This document shows, piece by piece, positions 3,585 through 42,647 of a DNA stretch of 42,774 nt. Under the pieces are notes generated by a model that worked only from the letters and a program-made list of their open reading frames with translations, searched no databases and was not told the DNA's origin. Each line of letters begins with the position of its first letter. Within the stretch, counting starts at the first letter, position 1. Source of the stretch: a virus; the IMG/VR virus record IMGVR_UViG_3300009100_000020, positions 1 to 42,774 of that record; one strand, given 5' to 3'. The position numbers were made by a program, and so were the translations under genes.

Positions 3585-6047
3585 CTAGCTCCCGTTGGGG
3601 ACTTCATAACCTACGACATAAAGATCCAGGTCGTTAGCACTGAACGATCCACTATAGACCGTATAGGCATGCCAAACCGACTGCGCCCGGTTTGGCAGCA
3701 TGCATTGAATCGCTTGCACTGGATTTTCACCAGCGAACGCCGCAGATAGCGGGTATTCATACATGGCCGCGCTGTCTCCGACTCCGAGATACCACCAGAT
3801 CGCACCAGCGCCGCCAGACGCGACACAAGAAACATTGCCCGATACCGTGACTGTCAATGCAATGGCGGGAACATAGGCGGCAGTTGAAACGGATCCCCAT
3901 ACGCCATTGCCAGCATTCAAAGTTGCTCCGATATTTTTCTGACCAGCATAAAAGCACCTGTTGCCACGAATGTGAACATATTCGAGGTTTCCGCTCGTGC
4001 GCTTAACCGTCGTCAGATAGGCCCAGTGCGTATAGCCGGAGGGCAAGGTCGGTCCCGCATTCGGTCCGGCGTTCGAGCAGATGCCCGCGAGCGTCGACGT
4101 CGTCGGGTTGTAGATCGCGTAGAGGTGCACGTCGCCATTCGACAGTGCCGCGTCAGGACCATTGGCACCGGCGGCGGCGCCTTGCGTCACCGTCAAGCTG
4201 CCGTTGGTGACGAGCAGGCTGCCAGCGCCAGTCTGGTGCAGCACGGCCTCGATGAACGTGACGGTGAATTGCGTCGCGCTAGTCAAGCCAGAAAGCCCGC
4301 GCACAGCGTAGACATCGCGCACCGCAGACTTGACGTGCGCCGTCGTCGCGATCGCCGTGCTGTTGTCATTGGCCGCTGGTGTCGGCGCCGCCGTTGTTCC
4401 GACGAGCGCAGCGTTGGTGATCTCGACCGGCGATGCGGTGTTGCTCTTGACCTGCGATTTGTTCTGGCCGCCGCTCAACATCAAAACGGTGTTGGCGGGA
4501 TTGGTGTCGAAGATCGACACCTGCATGCGGGTGAAATCACCAGTGTAGAAACTACTCGCCGCCGATGCTTTCGCGCTGAATGCAAGCCCGATGTTGGCGT
4601 CAGCGCCGGAAGCCTGGATTAAAACTTGCCCGGCACCGGCAGTTTGCGGCTGGATGTTGAGCCCCAAAGTTCCGCTCGCACCGAACGTCGTAACGCCGCT
4701 CAAGCGCGTATTGTTGAGTAGCGTATTGAGATCGACGCCCTCGATGGCAGTCGCCGAGATCCAGCGCGCGACTTGCGCGTTGAGCGGCGTGCCCGATGAC
4801 GATACGTTGCCGCCGGACGTCAACGACATCAGCGTGCCGCCGGAAAATTGCAGGCCGGTGCCAATACTGACTTGCGACCACACCCCGCTGCCGGAACGAT
4901 AATAGATGGTGTTGGTTCCGGAGAGCGCAGCGAGCGCAGCAAGATCGCTGTCGGCTTGCTGTGCGTCGAGCGTCGCCCGCATGGTCGCCGCGTCGGCATC
5001 ATCCAGCAGCGTGCGCGCAAACACCGACAGCGGCGTCAATGCTGCCGCGCCTGGTCCGGTGAAATACGGCGTCTGGTCGGCTGCGCCGGTCAAGCTCGCA
5101 AGCGCGGCCAGCTCGGCATCATAAGGCTGCGCGCCACCGGTGCCGACTCTGACGTCGAGCGTCCCGGCCGAATATGTCAGGTTGGCGCCGAGCGTGAGCG
5201 CGGACCAGGTATCGGCGCCCGAGCGATGATAAATGCCGGCGGCACCAACGCCGGTCGCCGCTGCCAGCGAGGTTAAGTCCGGGTCAGTCGTTTGTTTGCC
5301 TGCCAGCGCATTGGTGACAAACGCCGTGGTCGCGATGGTGGTATTCGAAGTCGCCGGGCTCTGTGTCGGCGCGGTCGGATTGTTGAGGAAATTCGGACTA
5401 TCGAGCGCCGCCAGGCCGGCGGCCTGGTAGCTCTGCCAGGATGTGCCGTAGCGCAGGTAATAGTTCCCATCCGTCGGCGCGTCAGCAACGATCCCTTGCG
5501 GCCCGGTCGGTCCTTGCGGGCCAGGGATGCCTTGGACGCCCTGCGGCCCTTGGATGCCCTGCGGGCCGGTCCCGCCAGCGGTGCCGGTGTCACCTTTCAC
5601 GCCCTGCGGTCCGATCGGCCCAGCCGGGCCGGGCGGCCCTTCCGGCCCCACCGGTCCCTCCGGTCCGCCAGGCGTTCCGGGCGGCCCCGCCGGACCGACC
5701 GGCCCCTGAATTCCCGGCTCGCCGGCCACCGACACGTTCCAGCTCGGATAAGTGCCGCTGCCCTTGGTGGCATCCGGCGCGACAACGACGGTTTCGCCGT
5801 CGTAACTCACCACCACGCCCTCGAGCCAGACATTGGAATAGCCTTGCGCGGTCGCGCGTACGCGCTGGCCGGGCAGGAACGAAAGCCCGTATTCGTTGAG
5901 CACGAAGCTCTTGTTGTCGAGATCGACGGTCTGCCCGCTGTCGCTTGTGCCCGCGGCACGCGGCCCGATAGCACCGTAAGGCGCGGCGATTGCGACCGCC
6001 GTGGGCTCGACAGTGCGCTCGACAACCGTAAGACCGATGATGGTCAT
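3585..6047 (-). CDS. collagen-like tail fibre protein, 820 residues
   Basis: A modular fibre. Residues 1-110 are a beta-rich head domain ([19 protein letters not shown]). Residues about 113-185 are collagen-type Gly-X-Y triplets ([24 protein letters not shown]). After this come repeated beta modules: units with IATTAFV ([15 protein letters not shown]) and units of the form DLxxLAAL...YYRSGxxxW...GGTL. The C-terminal 250 residues are a beta-sandwich-like tip domain. It overlaps the preceding small gene by ATGA. The same two types of repeat modules occur in the 1292-residue fibre at 11294-15172, which implies module exchange. It probably forms trimeric fibres on the baseplate for host recognition. 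No chaperone gene with a recognisable family follows it. Receptor and tip fold are not predictable here. Confidence 0.8.
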
Positions 6048-29485: not shown

Positions 29486-29685
29486 GACTGCAACAACTCG
29501 ACCAGCTTGGCGTTGCGGCGGCGCTCGCGTGCCAGCAACAGCATCAGCGCATGGCGGGCGCGGGCAGGGTCGCGCTCGAGCGCCAGGCGCGCGGGCGGAC
29601 GGGCGGCTGCGGACAGCTCGGCCGCGCCGTGCTTAAGCTCGGCCACGCGTGCGCTGGCCAGCAGCGATTGCTTGAGCCGGTTCAT
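29482..29685 (-). CDS. small helical Ala/Arg-rich protein
   Basis: A 67-residue protein ([38 protein letters not shown]), predicted to be almost wholly alpha-helical. Both ends overlap neighbours by four bases (ATGA), which argues for translation. It lies between the collagen-like fibre gene and the connector, so it may be a scaffold or a chaperone-like helper for one of them. No family recognised. Confidence 0.5.
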
Positions 29686-30923
29686 TTGGTTTCCGTGTGG
29701 AATTGCTCGAACAGCTCGCGCAGCGGTAATGCCACTTCATCGCCGTCGGACATGACAGCAATTGCACGATAACTGGCGCGGTCGATTCGCCATTTGACGA
29801 TGCGGGCGCCGGGCGGGCCTTGCTCGCCCTTCACGCCGCGCTCGCCAGGGCGGCCAGGCTCACCATCGCGGCCAGGCTTGCCCGCGCGGCCGACGCCGCA
29901 GAGAAGTTGCCAGCCCTCACCAGGACAAGGGCCGGGCGCGTCCTTCAACGCAACGAAGCTCGAACCGTTGACCATGACTAAGTCGAGCCGGGCATATTCG
30001 GCTTCGGCCTGGTGCAGCCCGCGCGGGTTGATGGCAGCACCGTCGCGACCGCCGACCGCCAAGCAGATCCAATCGGCGCTATGGCCGGGCCTGGTCGCGG
30101 TATCCTTGAGCGCCTGGTAGCAGGCGCCATCGCAGGCGAAGACGTCGCCTTCATAGGCGACCGTATCCGGCCGCCACAGCTTGCCCTTCGGCAGCTTGCC
30201 GCGTGGACCTTCCGCGCCGCGCTCACCGGCGACCCCGCGCTCGCCTTGCGGTCCGGACGGTCCCGGTGGTCCGGGTGGGCCGTCAACGCCAGGCTGGCCG
30301 GGCGGCCCTTGCTCACCGATGGCCCCGCGTTCGCCCTGCGGACCGGGCGGGCCGTTAGCACCGGGCTGACCGGATGGGCCTTGCTCGCCTATCGGCCCCG
30401 TTGCCCCTGCCGCGCCGGGCGCACCGGGCTCGCCGTCTTTGCCAGGCTGACCGGCTTCGCCAGGCTCGCCCTTTTCGCCGCGCTCGCCTTGATCGCCCTT
30501 ATCGCCGATAGCGCCAGGCGGCCCCGCGGCGCCTGCTGGCCCTTGCTCGCCTTGCAGTCCTTGCTCGCCGACATCGCCTTTCTCTCCCTTGCTGCCGGGC
30601 TCGCCATTGATGCCAGGCGGCCCTGGTAGGCCGGGCGGCCCGCGCTCGCCGATTTCGCCAGGTTCGCCGGTGTCGCCTTTCTCACCGCGCTCGCCTGGCG
30701 CGCCGTCGCGCACGCGCGCCAGACAGTCATCCACGACACGCCGCACTTCCTCGCGTAGCTCGGCGTTTTGCGCGCGCAGCTCGGCAATGGTGGCGCGCGC
30801 CTGCGCCTCGATTGTCTCGCGCTCGCGTGCCCATTGGCGGCGCTGCTCGGCAATGACCTGGCCGAGTGCGGCGCGAAGTTCGTCAAGCTCGCCGTCGAGC
30901 TGCAAAGCGTAAGCGTGATTCAT
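29682..30923 (-). CDS. collagen-like fibre with coiled coil and carbohydrate-binding-like modules, in the head module
   Basis: A 413-residue protein. Residues 1-75 form a long charged coiled coil ([37 protein letters not shown]). Residues about 76-245 are uninterrupted Gly-X-Y triplets ([19 protein letters not shown]). Two short modules follow: [19 protein letters not shown]...CYQAL and [19 protein letters not shown], each like the W/Y-rich CBM5/12-type chitin-binding folds often fused to phage fibres. A second short collagen segment ([16 protein letters not shown]) then precedes a C-terminal beta domain. It is placed between the portal and the connectors, not in the tail-fibre cluster. A trimeric head or neck fibre is therefore likely. 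No known receptor. Confidence 0.75.
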
Positions 30924-33502
30924 TCTTCCTCGCTTTCGCCTTCATCGGATTCCCCGGCCTCGATGCGAGCCTTGACGGCATCAGAAATCTTTTTGGCCGC
31001 GGCGTCATCGCCGTCGTCGAGAATGTCCTGATGCAGCTCGGCGTCTTGGTAGTTGCCGTCGTCGTCGATGTAAAAGAATTCTTTCGACTTGGGATTTTTC
31101 GTTCCGGTCTTCGGCGGCAGGTCGTCGGCGCGCACGACGCGGAAATGTTTTGCCGCAGATTTCTTTTTGCCGACATAGGCATCGAAGCGCGCCATCGATT
31201 CCTTGTCGCCGAAAACCAGCTTGCCCTCCCATGACGAGCCCAGCAACATTTGCTTGCCAAATGCGCTATCGGCAATGGCCCATATTGCCTTCGGGTCGTT
31301 GCTCTTGAGCGCGCCGCCGATTTGAGATTGCACCATCGCCAGCACTTCGGGAGTTGATTTTCCCAGCCTGCGATTGATCGACTCGCGGATCTTGCTCCAA
31401 GCGCCTTTGGTTGGAACGTAGCCATATTTGGCCCAGGCATAGCCGCCGACGTCGAGATTGGCTTTTGTCTCAAGATGCTTGATGCCAAGGTCGCGGTAGG
31501 TCTGCACATTTCCTGCAAGCAACTTTTTGCCGACGCCCTTGGATTGCGCTTCCTTGCTGACTTCGAACAGATCCGAAGTTGCAACGTTGCGTTTGACATC
31601 TATCGAGCGCTGAAATTCGCCGACGGTTTTGCCGCCTTCCTTGAGCTTGCCGCTAATCTCTATAAGATGCTCGCGGGTCTGTTTGCCGCCCGGCTTGCTG
31701 GTGCCGACATTGAAGCTGCGCAGCGACACCGTCATGTCGCCTTGTGCATCGCCGAGAAATGATTTTTTGAAATCACCGGGATCCATTCCGACGCTATCGT
31801 TCCAGACTTCAAGAAACTCCTTTTCGTCCACAGTCGAAACTTTGACGCCCTCTTGCTTGAACTTGCTGGTGCTTTCGACCTTGACCTTTTCCTTGCCGCC
31901 GCCCTTGCCGCCGCCGCTTGTCTCATCGCCACCGCTGCCCGGTTCACTGCCGCACAATAAGCCCGTCTCGGGATCCTGGCAGAAGTCGCGCAGCACAATG
32001 CGCCGGTCATATTCATCCGCCAGTGCGAGCAAGCTGCGGCGCTCACGCACGATGTTGGCCTTTTTCGGCGGCGGCTTGTCTTCGTCGTCGGACTCGAGCT
32101 TGGCGGGTTGCGGTTTGCCGGGCGGTGGCGCACCAGGTGCAGGCGCGGGCGGCGGATGCGGACCGGTCGAGAACGGCGACGGGCTGGTGGGGATGCCTGC
32201 CGCGGCAGACAGCGGCACGACCTGCTGTTGGACGCGCGGCTCATCGCCATGCGCGACTTTGGGATAGCTCTCGAGGTTGCGTGCTTCGTTAGGCGCCAGG
32301 ATGCCGCCCTGCACGGCACGCGCCAGGCTTTCGATGCGATCCTTGAACAGCGAGCGCAGCAACGCCGCGGTGTCCAGCTCAAGGTATTCGTCTGGCACGC
32401 CTTTGAGCTGGAACAGCACGCCAAAGGCTTCTTCGATATGCGAAAGACAGAACCCGAGCCCGCTGCTGACCCATGCCTGGTAAAGCGCTTCCACCGATGA
32501 AAACGCGGTGCCGCGGCCGCTCTTGTCGGACACGCCGAGCACCGCCAGCGGAATGCGAAACGCGAGCGCGATCTGTTCGTCGCTCATCTGTTTCATTTCC
32601 GCGACTTGCGAATCTTTGCCCGGCGTCGACCACGGTTGCACTTTCAAGCCAGCGGTCAGAATCGGCGTGCCGCCTGGTCCGCAGCCGTCGAGCCCGGCGG
32701 CTTGCTCGCGCCAGCGCTGGCGCAGCTCATCGACTTGCTGGCGGTTGAGCACCAGATCGGTCGACAGGATGGCCGAAGGCCGCGCCTGGTTGAGATAGAA
32801 CGCCGTCTGCTGTGCATTGATTGCCGAGCTGGTAGCAATCTCGGACAGCGCAGCGGTCAGCGGCGTCTCGCCGACCAGCGGGAATGGTTGCCGGCGGCGG
32901 ATGCAATGCAGGCGCACGTGCAGCACGTCGCGCATTGGCACCACCAGGCGCGCGTCCGGCGCCAGGCGCTTTTCAATCACATCGTTGCCGGCCAAGTGAT
33001 AAAAAATCTCGCCGTTATAGGCGAGCTGCGGCTTGCACTGGAATGGATCGAACATATGCAACGATTCAATCTCGAAGCGATTGTTGCGCAGCGCCAACGC
33101 ATAGGCGTTGCCCTCGAGATAGACCGAGCGCGTCAGATTCAACATGAAATCTGAAATGCTCTGATAGTCATTCGGATGGCGCAGGATGCGCGATAGCGCC
33201 GAATTGGTCACGCGCTCGCGGCCGCCGTTGGCTTTGCTGCGCCAATGGTCGCCTGGCAGCATGGCCACGGTCTGCGCGTAGGCCGATACGCATGCTTCCA
33301 CCATGGCGGATTGGCTTGAGCCGCCATAGGGATCCATCCCGGTTTGCCACCAGTTGATGGGCGCCCCGTCAGGAAGCCAGCCGCCGGTGACGGGCAGATA
33401 GTACGGCCCCGACCGCGGCTCGCCTTCGACCGCGCGCAACACCGCATTGGCATAGACATTTTGCGCCGCCGAGATGACGACGGGCGCAAGCGCCGTATCC
33501 AT
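30920..33502 (-). CDS. portal protein fused to a C-terminal GNAT-like extension
   Basis: An 860-residue protein. Residues 1-430 are a HK97-type portal: [52 protein letters not shown], and [21 protein letters not shown] near 303-323. Residues 436-480 are a Pro-rich linker. Residues 500-545 contain [19 protein letters not shown] and a Gly/Lys run. Residues about 585-702 are a separate domain with [29 protein letters not shown] and [10 protein letters not shown]; the QxxGxG and following helix/strand order look like acetyl-CoA-binding GNAT enzymes. An acidic tail ends the protein ([22 protein letters not shown]). Typical portals are about 400-450 residues, so half of this protein is extra. Its start is preceded by a possible terminator and it overlaps the collagen gene by four bases. 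Confidence 0.78.
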
Positions 33503-33577: not shown

Positions 33578-33889
33578 TTACGTTGTCTGGCGCGGCGGCT
33601 GCGGCGTCGCTTGACGGGTTTGATACTGCGCGCTCGGCTTGCGCGCTTCCACCGTTTTCGCCTCGCTGGGCGGCGGTGCATTCTGCGGCAGGTTGTTGGG
33701 ATCCGGGCCGCTGCCGTCGTCCTCTTTCTCGAGCACATGAGCGCCGAGCGCAGCAAGATCATTCTCCTCTTGCGTCGGCGTGGGTTTGCCTTGCGACCGC
33801 TCGGCATATTCGCGCGCGGAGACTTCCTGCCGCTTGCGATTTTCCTCGAGCTGTTTGCGGGCAGCTTCGTTTGCAGGATCTTCGGCCAT
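33578..33889 (-). CDS. hydrophilic disordered protein between capsid and portal genes
   Basis: A 103-residue polar protein (NEAARKQLEENRKRQEVSA, ENDLAALGAHVLEKEDDGS, NNLPQNAPPPSEAKTVEAR) with a helical N-terminus and a Pro/Gln/Asp-rich end. ATG 33889 is preceded at eight bases by AGGAG, so translation is well supported. It sits between the capsid and portal genes, where scaffold-like or decoration proteins are often encoded. No family recognised. Confidence 0.62.
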   Translation of the reverse strand: MAEDPANEAARKQLEENRKRQEVSAREYAERSQGKPTPTQEENDLAALGAHVLEKEDDGSGPDPNNLPQNAPPPSEAKTVEARKPSAQYQTRQATPQPPRQTT

Positions 33890-33908: not shown

Positions 33909-33984
33909 GTTGCTTACTAAGTTGCTTACCAAGAGCGACGCTGTGTCCTGCGCTTACTAGCCAGGACACAAGGTCGCTTACCAG
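33909..33984. repeat. four GTAAGC-containing repeats after the capsid gene
   Basis: On the minus strand, copies of TRGTAAGCR occur four times in about 75 bases: one contains the capsid stop codon (TGGTAAGCGACC, 33984-33973), one lies in the loop of a hairpin (TAGTAAGCGCAG), and two form a 12-base tandem pair (TGGTAAGCAAC and TAGTAAGCAAC, 33932-33909). The rest of this gap contains no gene. Confidence 0.6.
33942..33970 (-). terminator. hairpin after the capsid gene
   Basis: A perfect 9-base-pair inverted repeat (TGTGTCCTG with CAGGACACA) with an 11-base loop, starting 8 bases after the stop of the protease-capsid gene. No T-run follows, so it may be a processing or stability element rather than an intrinsic terminator. 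Confidence 0.45.
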
Positions 33985-36329
33985 TTGACGTTGTTGACCC
34001 ATGCGACGCAACCGCTGCGCCGCATTAACCAGTTGAGCGGCATGATCATTCGCAATGCGATGCTGTCAGTCTGAAACAGCGAACGCTGCGGTGACGCCAC
34101 GGTTCCGGGCGAGCCGGTGCCGACCAGCTCAAGTGGAGTCGTGTCCTCCATATGAAGCGTAGCAGAATCGCTAAGCTCGAAGCGCGGCCCGCCACCGCCG
34201 GCCGTAACGAAGTCCGCCGCGTCGACCAGGATGACGGTCCGGGTCGGGATCGTTGCCGAGTCGATGATCGGGATGTTGAGCAACGTGCCCTGACCGATTT
34301 CCGCCTTGAACGGGAAGATCCCGTTGGTGTTGGCCAGCGACGCCGACAGCATCTCGCCGGGATTCATCAGGAACACCGGGTTGCGGATGTTGCCCTTGGT
34401 GCTGGTGGTCAGCACGCCGACCAGCAGCTTGAGATCGCCGATGATCGCGGGCAGACCTGGCCCGGTCGTTGGCGTCTGCGCCGCCACACCGTTGAGCAAG
34501 CCCGCGGGCCGCGTGGTGGTCGCCGGGTTGGCGTCGATGAGCACCGAGTCGATGGACACCGACGTGTCGGTCTGGATGGCTTCGCGCAACACGCCTTCGA
34601 TGGCGGGTGTGCTGTGCTCGCTCATTTCGCGAGTCCACACGGTGATGACGGCGAGTTTTTTCGGCGTAAGATTCTGACTCGTGAACGCGCCGATGCGGAC
34701 CGGGATGGCGGCGCCTTCTCCGACGAAGGATCCGGCAATGGTCGGCGTCACCGAACGAGTCGGAATCACGATTTTCGCGGCACGTCCGAATTGCAACGTC
34801 AGGCCCCTGGCCGCAAACCGGGTATAGACGGCTTGCGGGATGAGCTGCGGCATCAGCTCGGCATAGGTTTGCTGTGCCAGTTCTTGCGCCCAACCCGGTA
34901 CTGTGGTCATGGCGGGCGCAGTGGCCGTGCGCAGGATAAGACCGCAAGCGACCCTGGTGACTTCGTCGTCGCCGTAGATCTTTTCGCACGCCTTGATCGG
35001 ATCAATTTGCCAGTCTTTCGCGAATATCGCGACCGTGCCCGCGCGCACCAGATATTCCAGCGGTGCCAGCTCTTTCTTGCGCTTGGGGATGACGTGCGGC
35101 GCACTGATATCGTGGTCGTTGCCATCTTCCGGGCGGCGCTGGTCGTGCAGCACCGTCAACGCCCGGCTCGAGCTGCCATTGCCGTTGCCGTCAGTCGACT
35201 TCGCCAGCAGCTTTTCCGATTGCAGCCAGGCATCGAGCCGCTTGCGCATCTTGGCGATGTCGGCATTGAGCGCGGTCGTCGTTTCGATTTCGTCATCTTG
35301 GACGTCATCGTTGTCCATCTTCGCCAGAAGCGCCGTCAGCGCGTCTTCCTTTGCCACCAGATCGGTTTGCAAAGCGGCGATCCGTTCTGAAAGCGTGCTC
35401 ATGATTTTTGAGCCCTTTCTATTGCGAGAAGTTGCGGCATGCTCGCCGGTGGCACCGTTGCGCCGGATGGTCCCGTTTCCTTTGCGTTGCTCCGCGAAAA
35501 CGAGTCCGAGCGTGTCGGTGGAAACTTTCAGAGACTTGGCCAACGCCAATGCATTGGCGTTGGCAGGTACCGCAACCAGCGAGCATTCGACCAGCTCTTG
35601 CTCGAGGAAGCGGAATGGCCCGAAGAATGGATCCGACTTTTCAGTCAGCGGTTCGCGCTTGGTGGCGCGGAAGCCGACCGACACCGCGCGCAGGATGTCA
35701 GCGTCAACCAGGCGGCGGATTTCGTCGATGCGCGGTGACGTGCCTTCCGGCGCCAGCTCGAGGCGGCCACGAAGCTGCACGCCGTTGACCTTGACGTCAT
35801 GCCAGCGACCTACAATGAAGGTCGGGTCGTGCGCAAAAAGTGCTACGGGGTTGCGCTTGAACGAATCTGTTTTCCAGCCATCGGCGGAAATGATGTCGCC
35901 CATCCGGTCTTCGGATTCATCCGATAAGACGAAGTGCCAGCCGGTGCCAGCCTTGCGCGCTTTTTCGGCATGCGTGGCGCGGTGCACGTGATCGGCGCCG
36001 CTACTGCGCTCCGACCACAGCATGGCGCAGGCTTCCTCATCGTCGATGGCATCGACGCAATCGCTGATGAATTCTTCGCGGTCGTCATAGTCTTCGGGAT
36101 CCGGTGCTTCGGCTTTTGTCGTCAGCAACCTTTTCCAGAGCGCGATGATGCGTTTGACTTCGGCGGCCGGTGGCGCCGCTAAGTTTTTGCTGTCGCGCCA
36201 GTAGCCCATGCAGATCGCAACAGCCTGTTCCTGCGTGCGATCTTCCGGCGCGTCGTCGCCGAATGTCTCGCTCATGCAGCGGGCCATGAAGTCCGACTGG
36301 CTTTCGCCAGGCTTGGGTTTCATCGGCAT
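33978..36329 (-). CDS. prohead protease-major capsid protein fusion (HK97 type)
   Basis: A 783-residue protein. Residues about 130-275 are a HK97-type (S78) prohead protease: VALFAHDP with His167, RAVSVGF with Ser217, and ELVECSLVAVPANANALA with Glu248 are the family's key blocks. Residues about 310-385 are a coiled-coil delta/scaffold domain (MSTLSERIAALQTDLVAKED). Residues about 470-783 are the HK97-fold capsid (APAMTTVPGWAQELAQQTY, GEGAAIPVRIGAF, LIDANPATTTRPAGLL, SPQRSLFQTDSIALRMIM). A possible internal start exists at ATG 35402 (Met310), ten bases after AAGGG, which would yield capsid plus delta without protease. The N-terminal 110 residues carry a Cys/acidic extension with ESQSDFMARCMSETFGDDA, seen also in other phage capsid-assembly proteins. 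Start at 36329 is preceded by GGGAG. Confidence 0.88.
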   Translation of the reverse strand: MPMKPKPGESQSDFMARCMSETFGDDAPEDRTQEQAVAICMGYWRDSKNLAAPPAAEVKRIIALWKRLLTTKAEAPDPEDYDDREEFISDCVDAIDDEEACAMLWSERSSGADHVHRATHAEKARKAGTGWHFVLSDESEDRMGDIISADGWKTDSFKRNPVALFAHDPTFIVGRWHDVKVNGVQLRGRLELAPEGTSPRIDEIRRLVDADILRAVSVGFRATKREPLTEKSDPFFGPFRFLEQELVECSLVAVPANANALALAKSLKVSTDTLGLVFAEQRKGNGTIRRNGATGEHAATSRNRKGSKIMSTLSERIAALQTDLVAKEDALTALLAKMDNDDVQDDEIETTTALNADIAKMRKRLDAWLQSEKLLAKSTDGNGNGSSSRALTVLHDQRRPEDGNDHDISAPHVIPKRKKELAPLEYLVRAGTVAIFAKDWQIDPIKACEKIYGDDEVTRVACGLILRTATAPAMTTVPGWAQELAQQTYAELMPQLIPQAVYTRFAARGLTLQFGRAAKIVIPTRSVTPTIAGSFVGEGAAIPVRIGAFTSQNLTPKKLAVITVWTREMSEHSTPAIEGVLREAIQTDTSVSIDSVLIDANPATTTRPAGLLNGVAAQTPTTGPGLPAIIGDLKLLVGVLTTSTKGNIRNPVFLMNPGEMLSASLANTNGIFPFKAEIGQGTLLNIPIIDSATIPTRTVILVDAADFVTAGGGGPRFELSDSATLHMEDTTPLELVGTGSPGTVASPQRSLFQTDSIALRMIMPLNWLMRRSGCVAWVNNVNW

Positions 36330-36341
36330 GGGGAATGCTCC

Positions 36342-36917
36342 CTAGAATTGCGCGAACGCCAGCCAGGTTCCGGCAACGTGCGTGATCGGCCAGCCCGCGG
36401 CGCGCAATTGCTCGAGCGCGCCGGTCACTTCGACACCAGGGTTGCCGTAGTCGTGCCAGACGATGACGCCGCCCGGCTTGATCAGCTTGCCCGCGGTGTC
36501 GCTGTCGTGCATGACCGCGTCATAGGAATGGTCACCGTCGATAAATACGGCATCACAGGGCTCGAGCTGGTCGGCGACGTCGAGTGAGCCTTGCGGCCGC
36601 AGCACCAGGCGAAAGCGCGGGTCATGCGTTGCCCAGCGGCCGGGCTTGTGTTGCACTTCCGATTGCTGGCAGCGCAGCGTCGTCACAAAGTCGCTCGGCA
36701 CGTCGACGCCGTAATAGCGCTCAATCGTCGGCACGTGCTCGAGTACGCGTCGCGCGGTCAGACCGGATGCAATACCAATTTCGACCATGACCCGCGGCCG
36801 CACGCGCCGCAGCAACGCGACCAGCACGGCACATTCATTGGCGTTGAGATAGGCGCTAAACGGTCCGCGCAGCGCCGTCGGGCCGAACGACGCTCTCGCG
36901 ACTTGCGGTAAGGCCAT
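36342..36917 (-). CDS. class I SAM-dependent methyltransferase
   Basis: A 191-residue enzyme of the Methyltransf_24-like type. Motif I is VEIGIASGLTARRVLEH (VExGxxxG), the acidic end of strand 2 is YYGVDVPSD, and the segment FIDGDHSYDAVMHD followed by LIKPGGVIVWHDYG is the family's conserved second half. The substrate cannot be told; members act on sugars, small molecules or proteins. Its start lies inside the end of the glycosyltransferase gene (62-base overlap), and it is followed 12 bases later by the protease-capsid gene. The pairing with a glycosyltransferase suggests methylation of a transferred sugar or of its carrier. Confidence 0.75.
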   Translation of the reverse strand: MALPQVARASFGPTALRGPFSAYLNANECAVLVALLRRVRPRVMVEIGIASGLTARRVLEHVPTIERYYGVDVPSDFVTTLRCQQSEVQHKPGRWATHDPRFRLVLRPQGSLDVADQLEPCDAVFIDGDHSYDAVMHDSDTAGKLIKPGGVIVWHDYGNPGVEVTGALEQLRAAGWPITHVAGTWLAFAQF

Positions 36918-38112
36918 GCAGTGCGCTCGTCCAATCGCCCGGCGCCGCCTGGCGGCAGATCTTCATGCTCGGATACCACGGGGCCAGCCAGCGCCAGCTC
37001 GCCCAATGCGACAGCAGTAACGTTACCGGCCGCTCGAGCGCACCCGCCAGATGCGCGGCGGCGGTGTCGACCGTCACAATCTCATCGAGCGCCAGCATCA
37101 GCGACGCGCAGTCGGTGAAATCCTCGAATTCATGCGTGCGCACGCCGAGCGCTTGCGCCTCTTCGCGGCCCTGCGTCTGCACCGAATGCAGCTCGACATC
37201 TGGTAGCGCCGCCACCAGCTCAGCCAGCGGGATCGCGCGCGGATAATCATCCTTGAACATTTGCCCGACCGACCAGGCGATGCCGACGCGGCGCTTGCCA
37301 TTGAGCGACCAGGCGACGCTACGGCGCGGCGCTGACAGCTTGAAATTGGGCAGCACGTCGCCCGGCGTGGCGACGCCGCAAAGATACGGCAACAGCAGGA
37401 ATGGGCAGAAGTAATCGGCCGACGGGTCGTCAAGCACCGGCCCGACTTGCGCCGCCAGCCGCTCAAGCGCGGGCGCGGTTGCCAGCCCCATCACCACGTC
37501 GAGCCCTTGCGCGCGCAGCCAGGCGACATAGCGCAGCGCCATGATGCTGTCGCCGAAGCCGTGCGCATGCAGCGCCAGCAGGCGCTTACCTGCCAACGGT
37601 TCACCGTGCCAGGGCCGCATTCCGGCCGCGAGCGCGGCCTTGCATTGCGGGCGCTGGAACGGCGGCATAGCCTCGCAATCAAAATATTCGCTAAAACCTT
37701 CGTGCCACCGTCCGACCGCCAGCAACATGAAAGCTCGGTTGAAGCGCGCGTGCACGGTCGGCGCGATGACAATGGCAGCATCAGCCTCCAACAGCGCTTC
37801 ATGGTTCTGATTGCTGCGGAACAATGCAGCGGCGCGATTGAAGTGCATCAGGTAGCGGTCGATGCTGACGCCGGGCCGTTGCTCAATCGCGCGATAGCCG
37901 ACGGCTTCGCCGCTGCGCATGACCAGCAGCGGTTCGTTCGGCGGCTCGGGCTTGTGGCCATTGCGGCCGTGCACTTCGAGCAGCTCGCCGTGCTCGGTCA
38001 GCCCGCGCCAGCCGGTTTCGGTTACCTCACACGCGACGACAGGATCCAGGTCCGGCAAATCGCCGAATCCAGAAAAAATCGTTTTGCCCTTGTTTGTTTC
38101 CATGCAGATCAA
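36856..38112 (-). CDS. TPR-containing glycosyltransferase-like protein (GT-B, heptosyltransferase-like)
   Basis: About 415 residues. Residues about 85-150 are tetratricopeptide-like helices (YLMHFNRAAALFRSNQNHE, FMLLAVGRWHEGFSEYFD). The second half is GT-B-like: LLALHAHGFGDSIMALRYV (GFGD loop), VGIAWSVGQMFKDDYPRAI in the donor domain, and EIVTVDTAAAHLAGALERP, typical of the GT9/TPR transferases that use nucleotide-sugar donors. The frame opens at TTG 38112, but ATG 38103 (METNKG) is the more likely start. No ribosome site is clear. The GGCNN array ends about 20-30 bases upstream of the start. The gene lies between the second capsid gene and the methyltransferase, in a head-gene block, so the acceptor may be a virion protein, but a host target is equally possible. 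Confidence 0.72.
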   Translation of the reverse strand: MICMETNKGKTIFSGFGDLPDLDPVVACEVTETGWRGLTEHGELLEVHGRNGHKPEPPNEPLLVMRSGEAVGYRAIEQRPGVSIDRYLMHFNRAAALFRSNQNHEALLEADAAIVIAPTVHARFNRAFMLLAVGRWHEGFSEYFDCEAMPPFQRPQCKAALAAGMRPWHGEPLAGKRLLALHAHGFGDSIMALRYVAWLRAQGLDVVMGLATAPALERLAAQVGPVLDDPSADYFCPFLLLPYLCGVATPGDVLPNFKLSAPRRSVAWSLNGKRRVGIAWSVGQMFKDDYPRAIPLAELVAALPDVELHSVQTQGREEAQALGVRTHEFEDFTDCASLMLALDEIVTVDTAAAHLAGALERPVTLLLSHWASWRWLAPWYPSMKICRQAAPGDWTSALHGLTASRESVVRPDGAARTV

Positions 38113-38132
38113 GCGCTACTTTATTGAAGTTA

Positions 38133-38202
38133 GGCAAGGCCCGGCGAGGCTAGGCATGGCGTGGCTCGGCCCGGCGGGGTTTGGCCTGGCATGGCAAGGC
38201 AA
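38133..38202. repeat. period-5 GGCNN array, copy 2
   Basis: GGC occurs every five bases from 38133 to 38200 on the plus strand with one GGT (38178): 14 units in exact phase, with varied dinucleotides between (AA, CC, GA, TA, AT, GT and so on). It sits between the second capsid gene (stop 38243) and the glycosyltransferase start (38103-38112), and has the same orientation as the array at 1245-1309. Each array lies 20-30 bases before a minus-strand start codon. Confidence 0.88.
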
Positions 38203-38242
38203 GGAGGAAGGCCAGGAGTTCGCGCTTCTGGCCTTCCGATTG

Positions 38243-39301
38243 TCATTTCCAAACAGGAGTCATCCAAGCGAAAGCACGCGGGTCGCGCAAGGCCCAGGTC
38301 ACGGGCCAGCGCATTTTAAGGCTCATAGTATCCGTTTGAAACATCGAGCGTTGCGGCCCCATGGTCCCGGCGGGACCGGGCACGGTATCCATCACTAAGC
38401 TCGCGGCCTTCGATGTCTCAATTTCCGGCTGCGGCGAGAACGCTGCCACCAGCGCCGCGGGCGCAATCGCCAGCACGTCGTTGATGACCGCGCTCGAGCC
38501 CAGCACAATGACGTTGGTTCCGCTCGGCGCGCCGCTGGTGCGGGCATTGAACAACATCGCCCGGCCCGGCGACATGACCAGGATAAACGGCCCGTTGCCG
38601 CCGACCGGCGCGAGTTCATTGAACAGCACGCCCATGTCTTCGTAGAACGCATAGGTCGGATCGGCATTGTTCGACGCCGTCGATGCCGCGATGCCATAGC
38701 GCAGGCCCGCCGGGCGAGCGGCGTCGCCGGGATTGGCGTCGAATAGCACTTCGTCGAGCATCCGGCCGGCGGCGTGCGTCAGGGTATCTTCCACCAGCGC
38801 TTCGGCGTTGCTGCTTTCGATCATCTCCCGCGTCAGCACCGCGATGGCAGCGAGCTTGTGCGGCTCGAGAAGGGCAGGCGATGCCGCGAGCTGGCGCACC
38901 GGGATCGGAGCACCTTCGGCGACGAAGCCAGCATTGCCGAACTCGGCCACAAAGCCGGGCGCACTGATTGAGCCGAAGCCGTCGAAGTTGAGCACCAGGC
39001 TGTTGCGGAAGATCTCGGCGGCCGCCGACGCCGGACCAAGCGCCTTGAGATTGTCCGCCACCATGCGCTGCGCCAGCTCGGCGGCCCAGCCCGCCACCGA
39101 TGTCATGGCCGGCGCCACCGCCGCGCGTATCACCCGGTCGCTCGGATAACGCTCGGCCACCACGTCCTCAATCCGGCGCCCTCGCACTTGCGCAATGATT
39201 TGTGCCGTCACCAGGCGCACGAAGCTGTTGCCGCCCGGTAGCGATGGCTCGGGCTGGAATGACGGCTTCACCGGCTGCGGCGGCGTCATGAGCATGTTCA
39301 T
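38243..39301 (-). CDS. second HK97-fold capsid protein (minor or vertex type), 352 residues
   Basis: Homologous to the capsid domain of the gene at 33978-36329: VAPAMTSVAGWAAELAQRM, AEGAPIPVRQLAA, LTREMIESSNAEALVEDTL, VLFDANPGDAARPAGLRYG, and the ending PQRSMFQTDTMSLKMRWPV all have counterparts there in the same order. It lacks the N-terminal protease and the coiled-coil delta domain, starting instead with a short Pro/Gln-rich segment (PPQPVKPSFQPEPSLP). Both copies keep the structured blocks, and neither is frame-broken. In other phages paired capsid proteins divide hexamer and vertex sites, which is a plausible job here. The leader contains a 10-base-pair hairpin at 39340-39381. Confidence 0.82.
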   Translation of the reverse strand: MNMLMTPPQPVKPSFQPEPSLPGGNSFVRLVTAQIIAQVRGRRIEDVVAERYPSDRVIRAAVAPAMTSVAGWAAELAQRMVADNLKALGPASAAAEIFRNSLVLNFDGFGSISAPGFVAEFGNAGFVAEGAPIPVRQLAASPALLEPHKLAAIAVLTREMIESSNAEALVEDTLTHAAGRMLDEVLFDANPGDAARPAGLRYGIAASTASNNADPTYAFYEDMGVLFNELAPVGGNGPFILVMSPGRAMLFNARTSGAPSGTNVIVLGSSAVINDVLAIAPAALVAAFSPQPEIETSKAASLVMDTVPGPAGTMGPQRSMFQTDTMSLKMRWPVTWALRDPRAFAWMTPVWK

Positions 39302-40564: not shown

Positions 40565-42259
40565 TCAGCCAATCAACGCGCTAATGTCCACCACCGCCAT
40601 GCCGCGATCGCGCGCGCGCAACCCCATCATCATCGCCAGCGCCACAGCGCCGTCAATGCGAAACCTGGCTTTCTCTTTGTCCAGCTTCCGATTACCCGCC
40701 GGATCCGTGGTCGCAATCGCGTTGCTCATATTCCAGATCAAGACCGGATTGGAATCGTGCACCACCTGGTGCTCGAAGATCGCGTGCTCGAGCGCATCAA
40801 TGGCTGGCGACATATCGCGGTAGCCTTGCCCCCAAGGCACCACACGCAAGCCATCGCCACCGCGTGGCAGCTTGCCAAACTCCTGCGGCTCGGTGCTGTC
40901 GCGAAATGATTGCAAGCCAATGCGGTCGAACTCACGCATCAGATTGTCAATGCGCCAGGCATCGTAAGCCAGCCCACGCACGCGATAAGTCACCGTCAGC
41001 TCGGCAATGAAGTTCGCTACGACGGCCTGGTCAATGCTGCGGCCGGGCGACGTCATCAGCCAACCGGCATCGCGCCATTGCACATAACGCTGATTGCCCG
41101 AACCAAAATCCTTGTTCGATTGCTCAACCAATAATTCGTCCGGTTTCCAGAAGAACGACTTCACCTTGCACGGATCCGTCACCGAGCCCATCACCACCGC
41201 GGTCAAGTCAATGACGCTCGACAAGTCGACACCTAGATAAACTTCCTCTTGCGGCTCGAATTCCACCTGGCCCGCACAGCTCGACCACTCTGCACGCGAG
41301 ATCAATGTAGATGCCGGATCAACCCGCTGATTCAAAAAGAGGTTTCTAACTTTCGGTTCCTCCGCAGGCATGCGGACGGCCTTGCGGATCCCGGAAATGA
41401 AATCTTCCTTGTCGCGAAATGACCCGAGCGCCGGATTGGCCCGCAACCATTCCGCCTCATCCGTCAGCTCGCAATCTTCCTTGGCCGCATGCAAGTGACA
41501 GACAATGGTCGGATCAATTCCCGCTAGACCATCGTCAATCAATTTCGACAGCACGTGCTCGGGGTCGTTGCTCTGTGTGCTCATCACGATGAACAGCGGT
41601 TCCTCGCGCGCACCGAAACTTGTATCGAGCACATCGTACAAATCCCGATTCTTGGCTTGTGCCAGCTCGTCGTACACGACCAAGCTGGGGGCGAATCCAT
41701 GCTTGGTGCCCGCCTCCGCGCTCACCGCCCGGTAAACCGAGCCGGTGTCGCGCGCCACCATGGTCTTGGTCGACGGCACCACATCAATCAACTCGCGCAG
41801 CTCGGGCTCGAGCCCAATCAATTGCTGGGCGAACTTGAACACGATTGCGGCCTGGTCGCGGTCGTTGGCCGCGCTGTAGATCTCGCCGTAAGTTTCCTTC
41901 TCCGGGCCAACCAGATGCGCCAATGCGATCGCCGCAATCAAGGCCGTCTTGCCGTTTTTTCTCGCCATACTGAGGATTGCACGACGCACCGCGCGCTTGC
42001 CGTTCGGCAGCGTCGGCTCGTAAATGTCTTTGATGAATGCCTTCTGCCAGCGTTGCAGCTTGAAGCGCTTGCCCTTGCCAACGCCGGACGGGATCGTCAG
42101 CAACTCGATGAAATCAATTACTCGCTTTGCGCGCCTCTTGCCCGCGGCGCTGCGCGTCACCTGACTGTTCAACCAGGTCGCCGAACTTAGATTTTTGTCC
42201 AACAGCGATTGGGTTGATGCGGGCTCGAGCCGCGGGGGTAAATCCGAATTCAATGGCAT
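40565..42259 (-). CDS. terL: terminase large subunit (HK97/Terminase_1-like)
   Basis: About 564 residues with the start at ATG 42259 (MPLNSDLPPR); a longer frame begins at 42298. The ATPase carries Walker A in SMARKNGKTALIAA and Walker B in SLVVYDELAQAKN, with FIVMSTQSND after it as coupling motif. The nuclease part has VYLGVDLSSVIDLTA with Asp as first metal ligand and the late KEKARFRIDGAVALAMMM with the last Asp. It cuts and pumps DNA into the prohead. It overlaps the small-subunit gene by about 146 bases, longer than usual, so the exact start is uncertain. Confidence 0.92.
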   Translation of the reverse strand: MPLNSDLPPRLEPASTQSLLDKNLSSATWLNSQVTRSAAGKRRAKRVIDFIELLTIPSGVGKGKRFKLQRWQKAFIKDIYEPTLPNGKRAVRRAILSMARKNGKTALIAAIALAHLVGPEKETYGEIYSAANDRDQAAIVFKFAQQLIGLEPELRELIDVVPSTKTMVARDTGSVYRAVSAEAGTKHGFAPSLVVYDELAQAKNRDLYDVLDTSFGAREEPLFIVMSTQSNDPEHVLSKLIDDGLAGIDPTIVCHLHAAKEDCELTDEAEWLRANPALGSFRDKEDFISGIRKAVRMPAEEPKVRNLFLNQRVDPASTLISRAEWSSCAGQVEFEPQEEVYLGVDLSSVIDLTAVVMGSVTDPCKVKSFFWKPDELLVEQSNKDFGSGNQRYVQWRDAGWLMTSPGRSIDQAVVANFIAELTVTYRVRGLAYDAWRIDNLMREFDRIGLQSFRDSTEPQEFGKLPRGGDGLRVVPWGQGYRDMSPAIDALEHAIFEHQVVHDSNPVLIWNMSNAIATTDPAGNRKLDKEKARFRIDGAVALAMMMGLRARDRGMAVVDISALIG

Positions 42260-42647
42260 GACGTAACACCTGCCTTGACGCTTCGCGCTCTTGCGCAATC
42301 AACGGATTTGCAAGTACGCGCGTCCCACCACCGTGCGTCTTGCCTTCCTCAATGACCAGCTCCCCATCGGCAACTGCTTTCTTCAATGCCTCAACTAACT
42401 CTCTCCGCACCTCAACCGCATGGCAATACCCCGCCAACGGCTCGAAATCGACCCGGCTCAATATCCTCATCTCAATCAACAATTCAGCAACGCGATACCA
42501 CTCCGCTTGACCTACCTCGCCAAGCCAATCAGGCGCGTTCGGCAAGTCCGTCACCCGCGGCGCTTCCACCTCGGGCGGGATGATTTGCTTGCCAGGGTTG
42601 CCGCGCAGCATCTTGATGCGCGCAGGAATTGGGGTCGGTGCCGCCAT
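42114..42647 (-). CDS. terS: terminase small subunit (P27 family)
   Basis: A 177-residue protein. MAAPTPIPARIKMLRGNPGK is the P27-family start, where the LRGNPGK motif is usual, followed by APDWLGEVGQAEWYRVAELL and EFGFTPAARARINPIAV near the end. It recognises the packaging site and feeds DNA to the large subunit. GAGG lies seven bases before the ATG. It is the first gene of the late run in the window. Confidence 0.88.
   Translation of the reverse strand: MAAPTPIPARIKMLRGNPGKQIIPPEVEAPRVTDLPNAPDWLGEVGQAEWYRVAELLIEMRILSRVDFEPLAGYCHAVEVRRELVEALKKAVADGELVIEEGKTHGGGTRVLANPLIAQEREASRQVLRHAIEFGFTPAARARINPIAVGQKSKFGDLVEQSGDAQRRGQEARKASN

Follow-up and report, generated by a model that had tools for sequence, protein, structure and literature searches.

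A protease-fused capsid gene and a predicted HK97-fold partner with satellite-like relatives in one phage head module

Why does the head module of a phage hold two capsid genes, only one of which is fused to a protease, and where did the other one come from? The question arises from a viral stretch of 42,774 nucleotides, the window analyzed here (IMG/VR record IMGVR_UViG_3300009100_000020, positions 1-42,774). The gene order in its head module is terminase small subunit (TerS), terminase large subunit (TerL), small genes, the gene of a 352-residue protein called MCP2, a glycosyltransferase-like gene (GT), a methyltransferase-like gene (MT), the gene of a fused protease-delta-capsid protein, a gene of 103 codons, the portal gene, and a collagen-like gene. 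The tail genes include those for a sheath, baseplate J, and a Mu-like hub, indicating that the phage is a myovirus. Both capsid open reading frames (ORFs) lie on the minus strand, where an earlier note on this DNA had placed them (Table 1).

MCP2 and the capsid domain of the fused protein are 36% identical by BLASTP (116/324 residues, 122 bits, E 1e-34), and the alignment runs, as that note had described, through the blocks APAMTxVxGW, EGAxIPVR, FxDANPxxxxRPAGL, and PQRSxFQTDxxxLxM, MCP2 having about a dozen residues fewer in the A-domain region. The fused protein matches Peptidase_S78 (4e-7), Phage_capsid (7.7e-9), and the major head protein family phrog_617 (5.7e-77), and residues H167 and S217 of its protease, which we take to be catalytic, are invariant across an alignment of 17 relatives. 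Its full-length model is of low confidence, with a mean predicted local distance difference test (pLDDT) score of 45.6, and was not used as a structure; the putative delta domain is assigned from its position, its conservation, and two locally better helices of that model (313-338, 345-380), and the A-domain would extend over approximately residues 616-707. MCP2 also matches phrog_617 (4.1e-20, profile positions 295-503 of 626), and a Pfam search with it matched no model. It has no protease domain, and only ~25 residues precede its conserved N-arm, which leaves no space for a delta domain. The AlphaFold2 model of MCP2 (29-row alignment) has a mean pLDDT of 78.9 and a predicted template modelling score (pTM) of 0.73. 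Among the matches listed in a structural search with this model are HK97-fold capsids and encapsulins, the best being HK97 prohead I (8fqk_A; VIA Z 16.6, 243 residues, 3.9 A). MCP2 is thus predicted to have the HK97 fold, and the assignment to another fold that the earlier note had named as a refutation did not occur.

The pair is conserved. Scanning viral contigs with MCP2 (38 relatives kept from 41 matched stretches) and in reverse with the fused-gene alignment (80 of 572 kept) gave 111 contigs once the scans were pooled and repeated contigs removed. A second capsid gene is found in all 39 of those that show both TerL and the fused gene, 26 of which were also recovered by the reverse scan; these 39 include at least four near-identical copies (L022, L023, and L025 of L021; L083 of L082). 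The 32 contigs that have the fused gene and no partner all lack TerL, suggesting that most of them are incomplete. Median pairwise dN/dS (nonsynonymous over synonymous substitution rates) is 0.23 for MCP2 vs 0.20 for the fused capsid, and both are therefore under purifying selection. In bacterial genomes, Bradyrhizobium stylosanthis BR 446 has both capsid genes, and loci in Mesorhizobium, Aureimonas, and Enterovirga have the fused gene only. At a threshold of 1e-20, the MCP2 alignment matched 35 of the 265 genomes from the genus to which BR 446 belongs, and MCP2 stands beside the fused gene in five prophages of three genomes (G001, G019, and, three times, G204). G046 combines the fused gene with a distinct partner (28% identical), and in G031, G199, G106, G071, and G173 the fused gene was seen with no partner. 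Three capsid genes, namely MCP2, a further phage type called M3, and the fused gene, occur together on contigs L047 (82-2731; 9971-12400) and L362 (1052-3176), while L084 has an end fragment of MCP2 with M3 and the fused gene. Stenotrophomonas phage SOVA965 (L041 4182-5587) was rejected as a further capsid pair, because its two overlapping annotated ORFs match consecutive parts of one capsid. The earlier proposal of one protease-fused and one delta-less capsid protein in a single head module is thus borne out by the domain matches, the short N-terminus of MCP2, and the conservation of the pair.

The pair is not the product of a simple duplication. In a tree built from 91 capsid domains, with PAJU2, JLK-2012, SP-016, RHph_X2_26, and Mcat9 as the root, the alphaproteobacterial fused capsids (100/95) are separate from a 50-row stand-alone clade (100/99), which comprises MCP2 (22 rows, 100/99), other phage-borne partners, and 22 of 25 stand-alone copies from bacterial genomes. 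Within it, MCP2, the stand-alone copies L172 and L174, and M3 form a 28-row clade (100/96), M3 being closest to L174 (100/97). The approximately unbiased (AU) test, applied to groups chosen after inspection of the tree, rejects both a clade of MCP2 with the fused capsids of the paired phages (p 0.0005) and a clade of MCP2 with the other phage-borne partners (p 0.0004). The second rejection indicates that phage partners entered or left the stand-alone pool more than once, and the deeper branching of the stand-alone copies suggests that transfer may have run from satellite to phage. The absence of the delta domain is the rule in the family of MCP2 and not a local loss. The word paralogous, which the earlier note had used for the two proteins, must therefore be given up in the sense of a duplication; rather, a fused capsid gene has been joined to a homologue from a pool that otherwise resides in satellite-like elements.

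This pool was characterized in 25 stand-alone loci of 23 genomes (Bradyrhizobium and other alphaproteobacteria). Integrases of one blastp cluster occur in 10 of the 25, with members confirmed by Pfam in L128 and L175, and an integrase is also found in L272 and, weakly, in L275. The scanned loci among them contain primase or AAA_25 helicase genes (L172, L175, L128, L268, L269, L272, L273, L274) and replication initiators (L174, L176, weakly L281). A search covering the portal family PF04860 and the TerL family PF20441 found neither in any of the 25 stretches; elsewhere in the 23 genomes, the portal family is present in 11 and the TerL family in 8. In four loci, direct repeats at a tRNA gene flank a span of 9.8-10.5 kb (Table 1), and two further genomes of the genus each contain a single copy of a 36-base segment of the L272 repeat, the pattern expected of an empty site. 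L172 and L268 have repeats of 17-20 bases, which were not accepted as attachment (att) sites. L274 has, downstream of its capsid homologue, a TerS of the family found in the studied phage (E 1.3e-59). Phage-inducible chromosomal islands (PICIs), as described in the accessible part of PMC6092414, have their own att sites, no structural genes, and a length of about 15 kb, and some carry TerS and capsid homologues. The stand-alone loci fit this description in their integrase and replication genes and in the lack of detected portal and TerL genes, and L274 also in its TerS, while att-like repeats are seen in four of the 25; by gene content they would be satellite-like elements. Some of them carry defence-like genes, namely AbiTii, PDC-S15 with an FRG domain, and OLD/AriA-like ATPases (Table 1).

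We propose, with a probability of about one half, that MCP2 is a genuine second shell protein drawn from this satellite-like pool, a co-assembling minority subunit that most likely forms the vertex pentamers. The fused protein would provide the protease, the scaffold (delta), and the hexamer lattice, and the delta-less MCP2 would enter the same procapsid as a minority subunit. This co-assembly is inferred, and a minor or vertex role is our best guess; pentamers at the vertices are suggested by analogy with Ccm of the satellite SaPIbov5 and gp24 of T4. An effect of MCP2 on head size may likewise be supposed. Phages of this group would have acquired members of the stand-alone pool several times. 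It is possible, and we put it forward tentatively, that the protein with which the satellites of this clade hijack capsids has been domesticated several times by the phages and now serves as a resident vertex subunit, that some lineages run as many as three HK97-fold capsid proteins, and that the shell is a shared and traded interface in an arms race between phage and satellite.

The presence of the partner follows the clade of the fused gene. With the solo fused gene of G199 as the query, 80 loci were retrieved, all of them devoid of GT, MT, and any second capsid gene; the partner is absent from all 49 that show TerL and the fused gene. A second sample, retrieved with two portal queries and thus avoiding selection on the fused gene, comprised 130 loci, from which 12 without the fused gene, 14 partial loci, and 33 duplicates were dropped, leaving 18 with a partner, 11 without (TerL and fused gene shown), and 42 of unassignable status. 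All 11 partnerless loci have solo-type capsid residues (11 or 12 of 12), and in none of the 18 partnered loci is the fused capsid solo-type, 13 of them having 11 or 12 paired-type residues, one 7, and four being intermediate. The partnered L177 has a fused capsid that falls in the solo clade in a quick tree and at the base of the paired clade in the careful tree. In the sets retrieved by fused-gene similarity, the capsid domain shows a single change of paired/solo label and 22 diagnostic columns of 335, vs 5 changes and 0 columns for the protease, 4 and 0 for the portal, 9 and 0 for TerL, and 3-5 and 0-1 for tail genes; the nine changes on its tree suggest that TerL is freely exchanged among these phages. 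Of 21 columns that nearly separate paired from solo capsids, 14 lie in the A-domain (hypergeometric 9e-5), the domain that lines the centres of capsomers.

Several results nevertheless weigh against our proposal. The A-domain signal weakens when the cut-off is relaxed (p 0.09) and is of borderline significance in columns conserved across both clades (p 0.049), and the sets used for it were retrieved by similarity to the fused gene, so that the clean split of the capsid is partly built in. In the portal-based sample, capsid, portal, and protease each show one label change, and TerL two (17 rows); portal and protease are thus divided according to partner no less cleanly than the capsid, and the idea that the capsid domain alone tracks the partner was dropped. 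The four loci with intermediate capsids (L288, L336, L289, L293) have a fused clade and a partner clade of their own. Finally, the distances of MCP2 correlate with those of the fused capsid (r 0.61) no more strongly than with those of the portal (0.59), both values being higher than that for TerL (0.35), which leaves co-evolution of the two capsid proteins beyond linkage unsupported: MCP2 is part of a shell-portal block, with no special pairing to the fused capsid. The partner evolves about twofold faster than the fused capsid (median distance 0.73 vs 0.37).

Other explanations have to be weighed against a minority shell subunit. MCP2 could be a head-size switch or an anti-satellite device, which makes a smaller second head or fills the sites of a satellite homologue and thereby blocks capsid redirection. 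The satellite-like surroundings of its nearest relatives, the repeated swapping of partners, and the faster divergence of the partner agree with this, as does the redirection of head size by Ccm alone in SaPIbov5 (accessible part of PMC8569155). Nevertheless, a second capsid gene in 39/39 clade contigs looks more like a fixed structural part, nothing in the genes read points to two head sizes, and partnerless phages of the solo clade occur in the same host genus; we regard this explanation as rather unlikely. Since the N-arm and capsid core are homologous, MCP2 might also share hexamers with the fused protein, or serve in assembly only, with no fixed place in the mature shell. This is unlikely in view of its shorter A-domain region and of the precedents of Ccm and T4 gp24, for which the available parts of PMC8569155 and PMC3012670 describe separate capsomers for each protein.

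The two remaining explanations concern origin. An in-place duplication of the capsid domain of the fused gene, followed by loss of protease and delta, would account for two proteins of the same family in the same module at 36% identity, but the grouping of MCP2 with stand-alone homologues (100/99) and the rejection of a joint clade make it very improbable. That MCP2 is cargo carried as a passenger, or a product of misassembly of the contig, has only the metagenomic source of the sequence in its favour; it is hardly credible, given that the same arrangement recurs in Bradyrhizobium chromosomes and in dozens of contigs obtained from different samples, and given the purifying selection on MCP2.

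The coordinates of the module are collected in Table 1. The shared strand of the capsid genes, with GT and MT between them, makes a single operon plausible. GT accompanies the paired clade, being present in 57 of the 67 loci where both capsid genes occur and in 0/80 solo loci, and MT likewise in 0/80; a role of GT/MT in modifying the capsid is possible. The acidic module at the C-terminus of the portal (about 45 residues) is found elsewhere as a small ORF immediately upstream of either the fused gene or MCP2, at the N-terminal end of a fused protein (L308, L325, L327), and, in four satellite-like loci, inside the ORF that directly follows the capsid homologue. The phage has two collagen-repeat proteins (3585-6047 and 29682-30923, the second after the portal), and the satellite-like locus L281 (8375-8815) encodes a protein related to the C-terminal portion of the phage collagen-like protein (E 6.7e-15).

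Table 1 Features of the head module in the window, and repeats and defence-like genes in satellite-like loci (aa, amino acids).
Feature	Position	Strand	Basis or remark
MCP2, second capsid protein of predicted HK97 fold, 352 aa, without protease or delta	38243..39301	-	phrog_617, predicted HK97 fold, homology to fused capsid
Fused prohead protease (S78)-delta-major capsid protein, 783 aa	33978..36329	-	Pfam and phrog matches, alignment of 17 relatives
Protease domain, residues 131-270	35520..35939	-	PF04586 4e-7 over residues 153-262
Putative delta (scaffold) region, residues 301-440	35010..35429	-	position and conservation
Capsid domain, residues 441-783	33978..35009	-	PF05065 7.7e-9
GT, TPR and glycosyltransferase-9-like gene	36856..38112	-	PF01075 1.9e-4, slightly below cut-off
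MT, SAM methyltransferase-like gene	36342..36917	-	PF13578 7.4e-16
103-aa gene following fused gene, module-conserved, no assigned function	33578..33889	-	conservation
Portal, ~400 additional C-terminal residues	30920..33502	-	PF04860 9.3e-64 over residues 68-411
Portal acidic C-terminal module, residues 806-849	30956..31087	-	recurs beside capsid genes in relatives and satellite-like loci
TerL	40565..42298	-	PF20441 3.4e-35, PF03354 5.3e-19
TerS	42114..42647	-	PF05119 1.6e-17; same family in satellite-like locus L274
Direct repeat, 47 bases	L128		tRNA-Asn
Direct repeat, 56 bases	L272		tRNA-Trp
Direct repeat, 52 bases	L275		tRNA-Asp
Direct repeat, 23 bases	L126		tRNA-Ser
Defence-like genes	L272 12479-13396; L174 11841-12995; L278 11330-13381; L265 4225-6189; L176 2186-4156

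To our knowledge, few tailed phages have dedicated vertex proteins, and the origin of these is unclear. Here, one host genus harbours closely related phages that either have or lack a second capsid protein, together with satellite-like elements that bear its homologues, which makes it possible to ask directly whether a capsid-redirecting protein of a satellite became a structural part of a phage, or the reverse. The system is also suited to asking how a delta-less protein joins an HK97-type procapsid, and the place of the nearest MCP2 relatives suggests a sharing and trading of shell parts between phages and the elements that parasitise them. A literature search by titles and beginnings of abstracts, with subscription papers and preprints mostly outside its reach, found no paper on a second capsid gene that is carried by a phage and has satellite relatives in Bradyrhizobium.

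Several known systems resemble parts of this arrangement. PAJU2, JLK-2012, and RHph_X2_26 have a fused protease-capsid gene, ~25-29% identical over the matched part, but a single capsid gene, with no second one annotated between terminase and portal. The PICIs of Gram-negative bacteria, such as PmCI172, resemble the stand-alone loci in their integrase, replication genes, and capsid homologue; they have other hosts, and the accessible part of PMC6092414 links no phage-resident second copy to their capsid homologue. Ccm of SaPIbov5, as far as the available part of PMC8569155 describes it, has 24% identity to the capsid protein of the phage, makes up the pentamers, forms no shells by itself, and shifts head size, and its mature chain begins at residue 88, the delta domain being cleaved off. 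MCP2, too, would be a stand-alone HK97-fold homologue of low identity to its partner (36% here), with relatives in integrase- and primase-bearing satellite-like elements. It differs from Ccm in being encoded by the phage, in a module with TerS, TerL, portal, sheath, and baseplate genes, and in having ~25 residues before the N-arm and no room for a delta domain, where Ccm has one that is cleaved before residue 88; moreover, pentamer occupancy is demonstrated for Ccm, whereas for MCP2 it is proposed. The T4 protease is a separate gene, whereas the partner of MCP2 is protease-fused, and MCP2 belongs to a clade rich in satellite-like copies. Nevertheless, T4 likewise makes two HK97-fold proteins, gp23 and gp24, from one phage, and gp24 forms pentamers and can be bypassed through mutations inside the capsomer (accessible part of PMC3012670).

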